Origin: Microcaldota archaeon
Lineage (GTDB): Archaea > Micrarchaeota > Micrarchaeia > Micrarchaeales > Micrarchaeaceae
Length of the DNA stretch: 37,811 nucleotides
NCBI GenBank assembly: GCA_021800515.1
Contig: JAJYYU010000004.1
Location: forward strand, 1-37,811
Direction of reading: 5' to 3'
Shown: positions 21,278-22,345 of the stretch, piece by piece
Position numbering within the stretch: the stretch's first letter is position 1
Layout: every line of letters begins with the position of its first letter
The notes under the pieces: generated by a model
What the model saw: the letters and a program-made list of their open reading frames with translations, nothing else
Database searches by the model: none
What the model was told of the DNA's origin: nothing
Program-made: the position numbers and the translations under genes

Positions 21278-21583
21278 TCAAACAACATCTATGTTCGACT
21301 CCTTGTATCCAATAGTTAGCAGAGCCTTTACAGCATCCTTTTTATGGTCCCCTTGAAGCTCTATCGAGAGATTCCTAGATGTCCCTCCACATGCAAGGAT
21401 CCTTTTGAGCTTTTTCGTGACTTCAACTATTTCGCTGTTGTCGATGCCGTCGATGATTGTTATCAGCTTCTTAAACTTTACCTTCTTCAGGTAAACTTTT
21501 ATTTTGTTTTCTCCTTCCTTATCAAGTATGGAACATACGCATATGTCCAGTGGAAGGCCGCATTTTGGGCATATATCTGTCAT
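21278..21583 (-). CDS. Translation initiation factor aIF1 (SUI1 family)
   Basis: aIF1 binds the small subunit and enforces start-codon fidelity. The 101-residue protein has a zinc-ribbon-like N-terminus (C5, C8, C15, C17 in CPKCGLPLDICVC) followed by the SUI1 fold: VTIIDGID equivalent (LITIIDGIDN), KKLKRILACGGTSR and IELQGDHKKDAVKALLTIGY. Its ATG overlaps the L29 stop codon (TAATG at 21585-21581), so the two are translationally coupled. Its presence beside an AUC-start gene is noteworthy. Confidence 0.95.
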   Translation of the reverse strand: MTDICPKCGLPLDICVCSILDKEGENKIKVYLKKVKFKKLITIIDGIDNSEIVEVTKKLKRILACGGTSRNLSIELQGDHKKDAVKALLTIGYKESNIDVV

Positions 21584-21780
21584 TAAATATTTACACCTCT
21601 TTGTGAAAGAATTGTTTTTATCCTTGCTATTGTCTTTCTGATTTCTTTCGACTTGACAACCTTGCTTGCCACTCCTGTGGACTTTATCTTCTGCCTTTCC
21701 TTAGACAGTTCAAGTTCCAGGTCATTAAGCTTTGAAACCAGATTGTTGTTGTCATTACTCTTGATATCTTTTATCTTGAT
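21583..21780 (-). CDS. rpl29: 50S ribosomal protein L29 with an apparent AUC start codon
   Basis: Translated from ATC at 21780 the 65-residue product begins (M)KIKDIKSND and continues NLVSKLNDLELELSKERQK, then SKEIRKTIARIKTILSQRG; this is the full two-helix uL29 with its KEIR..IARIKT signature. No ATG, GTG or TTG lies in frame between the upstream TAA (12 nt before) and residue 37, so every standard start would remove half the protein. AGGTG (21790-21786) is a strong Shine-Dalgarno 5 nt before the ATC. Either a true AUC start or an ATG-to-ATC error or mutation. Gene order L29-aIF1 is standard in archaea. Confidence 0.9.
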   Translation of the reverse strand: MKIKDIKSNDNNNLVSKLNDLELELSKERQKIKSTGVASKVVKSKEIRKTIARIKTILSQRGVNI

Positions 21781-22282
21781 GTAAACACCTGCTTATAGTT
21801 TATAGTTTTAAAATAAATAGGAAGACTGTTCAATAACTATTGAAGTAAATAAATATTTAAAATAGTCGGTTTATTTTCTCTTAGCTTAGGATACTGGCAT
21901 TTATATTCCTTTCATTTTGTCACTACTTTGATAAGTTTTTTTGCATATGATTAACCAATATCTCAATACATATGCAATAATAATACATGAATAGACATAT
22001 ATTGTTACTTTCTTTATACTAATAAATCTATTCTTTCCTTGCAAGGTAAAATATCTCTTTTAGTCTTGAAAAGATTCTTTTCTAATATAGTAAATAAGCA
22101 AATTTCTGGAAAAACTTGCCACGAAGTGAAAAACTTATGACTAGAAAAACAAATGGAAAAATCAAAATTAACATCGATGGTAAGATTCTTAAAATGTTAC
22201 AGTTAACTATTTAGATATTTATATGTTTACCTCGTTTGAGTTTCTAAGTAATTTATAAATATTTGGAATAATACAACTTTTT
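21781..22282. other. AT-rich divergent intergenic region
   Basis: No reliable gene is seen. Short frames exist (25 codons from ATG 22137 on +; a minus frame of about 35 codons with one internal TAG around 22020-22165), but neither has a ribosome site or known motif. The region holds the leader of L29 and the promoter of the HAD gene. Confidence 0.4.
22252..22260 (+). promoter_or_regulatory. TATA box upstream of the HAD gene and its leader ORF
   Basis: TTTATAAAT is centred about 27 nt before ATG 22283, so transcription should start at that ATG. Confidence 0.55.
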
Positions 22283-22345
22283 ATGGGCAATCAAAAAACC
22301 TTTCAGTTTAAAGAGGTGAAAGAATCCAGCAATCTAAAGAAATGA
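22283..22345 (+). CDS. Possible 20-residue leaderless leader peptide
   Basis: ATG 22283 lies at the expected transcription start and opens a 20-codon frame (MGNQKTFQFKEVKESSNLKK) whose TGA overlaps the ATG at 22342 of the HAD gene as ATGA. The arrangement suggests translational coupling or a regulatory leader peptide. It may be chance; there is no homology to lean on. Confidence 0.35.
   Translation: MGNQKTFQFKEVKESSNLKK

Follow-up and report, generated by a model that had tools for sequence, protein, structure and literature searches.

The infC gene of Escherichia coli, encoding IF3, starts with AUU, and IF3 regulates its own synthesis through this codon (PMC9410913). An AUU start is also given for E. 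coli pcnB in PMC9410913, and PMC6237735 describes eukaryotic eIF1 as repressing itself through a poor start context. For Saccharolobus, aIF1 is reported to make initiation complexes formed in vitro on non-AUG mRNA less stable (PMC6237735). The archaeal start codons listed in a review are AUG, GUG and UUG (PMC7531240), and we found no report of AUA, AUU or AUC starts (together AUH, or ATH in DNA) in archaea in the open-access literature searched.

We analysed a 37,811-nucleotide stretch of DNA (the window) from a Candidatus Micrarchaeota draft assembly of 49 contigs. On its minus strand, the gene for ribosomal protein L29 (rpl29, 65 aa; 21583..21780) is followed by the gene for aIF1 (SUI1; 21278..21583), downstream of which lies a gene for a UbiA-family prenyltransferase. 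A first-pass annotation of the window had proposed that L29 starts with ATC. Comparison across the family to which the window belongs indicates that AUA, AUU and AUC very probably are the start codons of L29 there, used in dependence on a Shine-Dalgarno sequence. Like the GUG and UUG starts of archaea, they would be non-AUG starts with a Shine-Dalgarno sequence (PMC7531240), but they are absent from the AUG/GUG/UUG set of that review.

Start codon of L29 in the window and its family

The minus-strand frame 21780-21583 matched the Pfam L29 profile PF00831 at 2.3e-10 over its full length (profile 1-57 of 57) and a second L29 profile, TIGR00012 (NCBIfam), which places the product in uL29. The codon at its start is ATC (21778..21780, minus strand) and aligns with the ATG of the sister family and the ATA, ATT or ATC of relatives. 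An AGGTG Shine-Dalgarno sequence lies 5 nt before it (21786..21790, minus strand) with its GTG out of frame, and an in-frame TAA 12 nt upstream of the ATC (21793..21795, minus strand) bars any upstream start. The earliest in-frame ATG, GTG or TTG is a GTG at codon 37 (V37). On each of these points, from the 65-residue frame to the lack of a canonical start before V37, the first-pass annotation was borne out.

L29 was found in 77 of the 85 genomes of the window's family, and its 5' end was readable in 75, the other two being at contig ends. At the Met column these 75 species carry ATA (62), ATT (7), ATC (4) or ATG (2), so that conservation across the family supports the AUC start (ATH in 73/75). 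No ATG was seen in close kin; the two readable genus mates of the window have ATC (G001) and ATA (G002). GGTG is present upstream of the codon in all 73 non-ATG genes, with a spacing of 5 nt (9 species), 6 nt (63) or 7 nt (1); where the spacing is 6 nt, G at -10 is invariant and A stands at -11 in 51 of the 63 genes. An error of sequencing or assembly that made ATC from ATG might be suspected in a window from a draft assembly, but separate assemblies of 73 species share this codon class, and among them is a single-contig genome of the family (G033, 989,838 bp) with a non-ATG L29 start. Conservation of the ATH column together with GGTG 5–7 nt upstream in 73/75 genomes excludes chance or error, and we regard the probability of an error as negligible.

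A tree was built on L29 plus aIF1, two short proteins, by a quick search. On this tree the L29 start underwent at least eight changes among ATA, ATT and ATC and only one inferred switch to ATG. The two species with an ATG-started L29 are sisters, and their GGTG is degraded (GGTAG, GGTAC). The Shine-Dalgarno sequence and start codon changed together few times, and their association was not significant once relatedness was counted (independent-pairs test, too few events); we therefore do not treat it as independent evidence. ATA made up 62 of the 73 ATH codons at the L29 start versus 329 of 487 other L29 Ile codons (Fisher p 0.0024, uncorrected for relatedness).

The sister family within the order has ATG as the L29 codon in 51 of 55 genomes; ATA, TTG and ACG were each seen once. 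The ATA belongs to G154 (locus L180), has GGTG at 5 nt and would be an AUH start gained separately, the genus mate G249 (L182) having ATG. The apparent ACG follows AGGTG in G047 (L170), where an in-frame GTG could serve too.

In other Micrarchaeota orders, L29 mostly has a canonical start three codons further upstream (ATG GCN ATH ...). This position raises the alternative that L29 in the window's family starts at the GTG inside AGGTG (GTG CTT ATT ATA, M-L-I-I-K), with ATH encoding a conserved fourth residue, Ile. The GTG stands at the same distance as the ATG of those orders, and hence at the ancestral start position. In 62 of the 73 family genomes it can be read in frame with no stop in between and could be a second start. 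We weighed this reading seriously and rejected it on account of frame breaks, a stop codon and the invariant G ahead of the GTG. A GTG start is impossible in 11 of the 73 genomes, including the window, because the frame is shifted, as happens with a spacing of 5 or 7 nt, or because a stop codon intervenes, as at L159, where the spacing is 6 nt and a TGA lies between GTG and ATA. Loss of the usable GTG took at least nine changes on the L29 plus aIF1 tree. Under a GTG start, moreover, neither the invariant G ahead of it nor the frequent A before that G would be needed, and the GTG itself is never replaced by ATG. The two spacer codons vary freely, but no change to Leu or Val was seen at the ATH codon, although such changes do occur at this residue in the outgroup orders. 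Finally, GGTG at 5–7 nt is exactly the distance found before ATG starts in the G033 sample (69 cases) and in the window genome. A GTG start of L29 is thus improbable, and comparative anatomy places the start at the ATH codon.

The other features of the region accord with a Shine-Dalgarno-led archaeal start at the family's usual spacing. The 3' end of 16S rRNA, which provides the complementarity, carries GAUCACCU in four family genomes among the matches listed, the window's own 16S end not being among them. TATA-like boxes precede L29 near -31/-30 in the sister family, a position that fits a leaderless L29 mRNA there, and at about -40 to -54 in most of the window's family, from which a leader of about 10–24 nt, with room for GGTG, is estimated. 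No clear TATA box was assigned upstream of L29 in the window.

AUH starts in other genes

The first-pass annotation had called an AUC start of L29 exceptional. Conservation supports the start, but the single-gene view was too narrow, since ATA or ATT also stands at the start of aIF1A, aIF2-gamma and uS4 in the window's genus. In three genus members aIF1A starts with ATT, aIF2-gamma with ATA or ATT, and uS4 with ATA placed right after a stop codon, a column at which 27 other species have ATG, TTG or GTG. In the window genome, a GGTG Shine-Dalgarno sequence precedes the ATT of aIF1A (L288:13870-14208), the ATA of aIF2-gamma (L368, 7004-5793, minus strand) and the ATA of uS4 (L278:6415-6975), and G001 and G003 of the same genus retain AUH in all three genes. 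RNase HII of the window's genus likewise has an AUH start with the GGTG signal. Overall, RNase HII starts with ATA in 8 of 16 loci from four genera and with ATG in others; the ATA loci include L406-L410 and L417 from several other genera of the family, and a stop codon immediately precedes the ATA in five loci. None of the other AUH starts that we found is as well conserved as that of L29-aIF1.

ORFs in about 546 kb of the window genome were scored for their first codon at GGTG spacing, which was ATG in 33 cases, TTG in 7, GTG in 1, ATH in 10 and one of the other codons in 6 together. When no canonical start followed within the next 10 codons, ATH accounted for 6 of 10 cases versus a background of 13% (p 0.0007), and decoy tetramers and other spacings gave no comparable ATH excess in this genome. 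Further candidates for AUH starts there are a CDC48-like ATPase and a membrane protein. By contrast with this genome, a 400-kb sample of G033 yielded no AUH start besides that of L29, so that AUH as a genome-wide habit was rejected for G033.

Two side observations concern single ORFs. On the plus strand of the window (22315-22326), an ORF for a HAD-like hydrolase carries an in-frame ATC six codons ahead of its first ATG. GGTG lies 5 nt before this ATC and is missing from the ATG, and the ATC may be a second AUC start in the window. In G011, three further ORFs have GGTG-N5-ATA starts (L440:18596, L442:17906, L444:14293), one of which resembles a glycosyltransferase by its N-terminus.

Because several other genes share the arrangement seen at L29, as conservation shows for uS4, aIF1A, aIF2-gamma and RNase HII, we infer that this lineage tolerates third-position start mismatches, and thus AUA, AUU and AUC, where a strong Shine-Dalgarno sequence is present. 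The use of such codons in genes other than an initiation factor's own recalls the AUU of pcnB; that, however, is a single gene in E. coli (PMC9410913), whereas here a family-wide conserved case is joined by several more genes.

Coupling of L29 to aIF1

The gene after L29 matched PF01253 (7.3e-11) and NF002096, and its product shows the archaeal N-terminal Cys motif CPKCGLP..ICVC in the alignment, which identifies it as aIF1 of the SUI1 family. It follows L29 directly in 75/75 family genomes. In the window, the L29 TAA and the aIF1 ATG overlap as TAATG (21585-21581, minus strand), and across the 75 family genomes the distance between the genes is -4 to +2 nt, so that stop and start overlap or abut in every one, as in translational coupling. 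Most sister-family genomes share this close spacing.

GGTG also occurs within the C-terminal codons of L29 (21594..21597, minus strand), 10 nt before the aIF1 ATG in the window. All 75 family genomes write the Gly concerned as GGT, and in 73 of them the next base is G; at another conserved Gly, GGT is used in 6 of 52. This embedded GGTG is held at 10–12 nt from the aIF1 ATG, outside the usual 5–7 nt, in the two families of the order alike; it probably serves aIF1 as a separate ribosome binding site at an unusual spacing. The coupling of aIF1 to L29 proposed in the first-pass annotation thus agrees with the tight junction in 75/75 genomes, but given aIF1's own ATG and the conserved GGTG inside the end of L29, the dependence of aIF1 on L29 translation may be partial.

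A changed basic loop of aIF1 was considered as a possible source of relaxed start selection. In the alignment, this loop reads mostly KKAKF(D/N)K in the window's family and mostly EKKKFRK in the sister family, with a similar net charge (3.63 versus 3.89); some sister-family species share the Ala. Residues seemingly equivalent to those shown to bind 30S (PMC6237735) are kept.

Initiation on AUH and possible control by aIF1

We propose that the strong GGUG Shine-Dalgarno sequence, 5–7 nt upstream on a short leader, would dock the 30S subunit and that the initiator tRNA would meet AUH in the P site. We infer for the tRNA step that the ordinary initiator Met-tRNA would read AUA, AUU or AUC (AUC in the window), the third-position mismatch being tolerated and Met inserted. 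RNA editing or an unusual initiator tRNA could in principle render the codon AUG-like, but A-to-I editing could rescue AUA and not AUU or AUC. In a tRNA scan that covered about 508 kb for the window genome and 400 kb for G033, recovered few tRNAs and can miss intron-containing ones, the candidates included only ordinary Met(cat) tRNAs. We consider either route highly improbable.

Initiation at AUH by the ordinary tRNA could make the operon responsive to aIF1. High aIF1 would reject the near-cognate codon and output would fall, and low aIF1 would let AUH through; L29, and aIF1 coupled downstream of it, would thereby be sensitive to the aIF1 level, and the weak start is perhaps kept for that. 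Such feedback fits the anatomy of the locus, with coupling in 75/75 genomes, a third-position mismatch like that of the infC AUU and the published discrimination of aIF1 against non-AUG codons, and selection for a weak start would agree with the way the family has held on to AUH at L29. On the other hand, aIF1 is equipped with an ATG and an embedded GGTG of its own, and genes unrelated to initiation use AUH too. That AUH was retained so that L29-aIF1 would respond to aIF1 is accordingly put forward as a tentative suggestion, on the doubtful side.

AUH could also be a neutral by-product of strong Shine-Dalgarno sequences in a reduced genome whose start selection is relaxed, with no regulation of L29-aIF1, and we give this about an even chance. 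In the window genome, genes without a role in initiation, such as those for RNase HII and the CDC48-like ATPase, also have AUH starts, and RNase HII and uS4 alternate between AUH and ATG or TTG from species to species; with AUH present in RNase HII and other genes, tolerance alone could suffice. A purely neutral origin sits less easily with the near-fixation of ATH at L29, where changes within ATH far outnumber the one to ATG while uS4 switches freely, and with the inclusion of aIF1A and aIF2-gamma, both players in start selection, in the AUH set of the genus. A broader scheme, in which archaea practise self-control of the IF3/eIF1 type, with AUH on L29 acting for aIF1 and extended in the window's genus to aIF1A and aIF2-gamma, is somewhat less probable again than the responsiveness of L29-aIF1 by itself. 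If it were true, three start-selection factors would be expressed via codons that they are expected to reject.

Like infC, the locus places a third-position mismatch start before a gene whose product selects against such a start, the near-cognate codon being ATA, ATT or ATC in 73/75 genomes. It differs in that the odd codon is mostly AUA and stands on the coupled upstream L29, that aIF1 itself keeps AUG, and that regulation is only proposed. The resemblance to eIF1 (PMC6237735) lies in a homologous SUI1-family factor whose own output depends on start-site stringency, but eIF1 has AUG in a poor context, whereas here AUH with a strong Shine-Dalgarno sequence stands on a coupled upstream gene.

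Family-wide AUA, AUU and AUC starts would widen the archaeal set of start codons. If AUH starts hold, gene callers can misplace the starts of essential Micrarchaeota genes or overlook such genes altogether. The L29-aIF1 locus also opens a testable question, namely whether a fidelity factor regulates itself via a poor start in archaea, as IF3 does in bacteria and eIF1 in eukaryotes.
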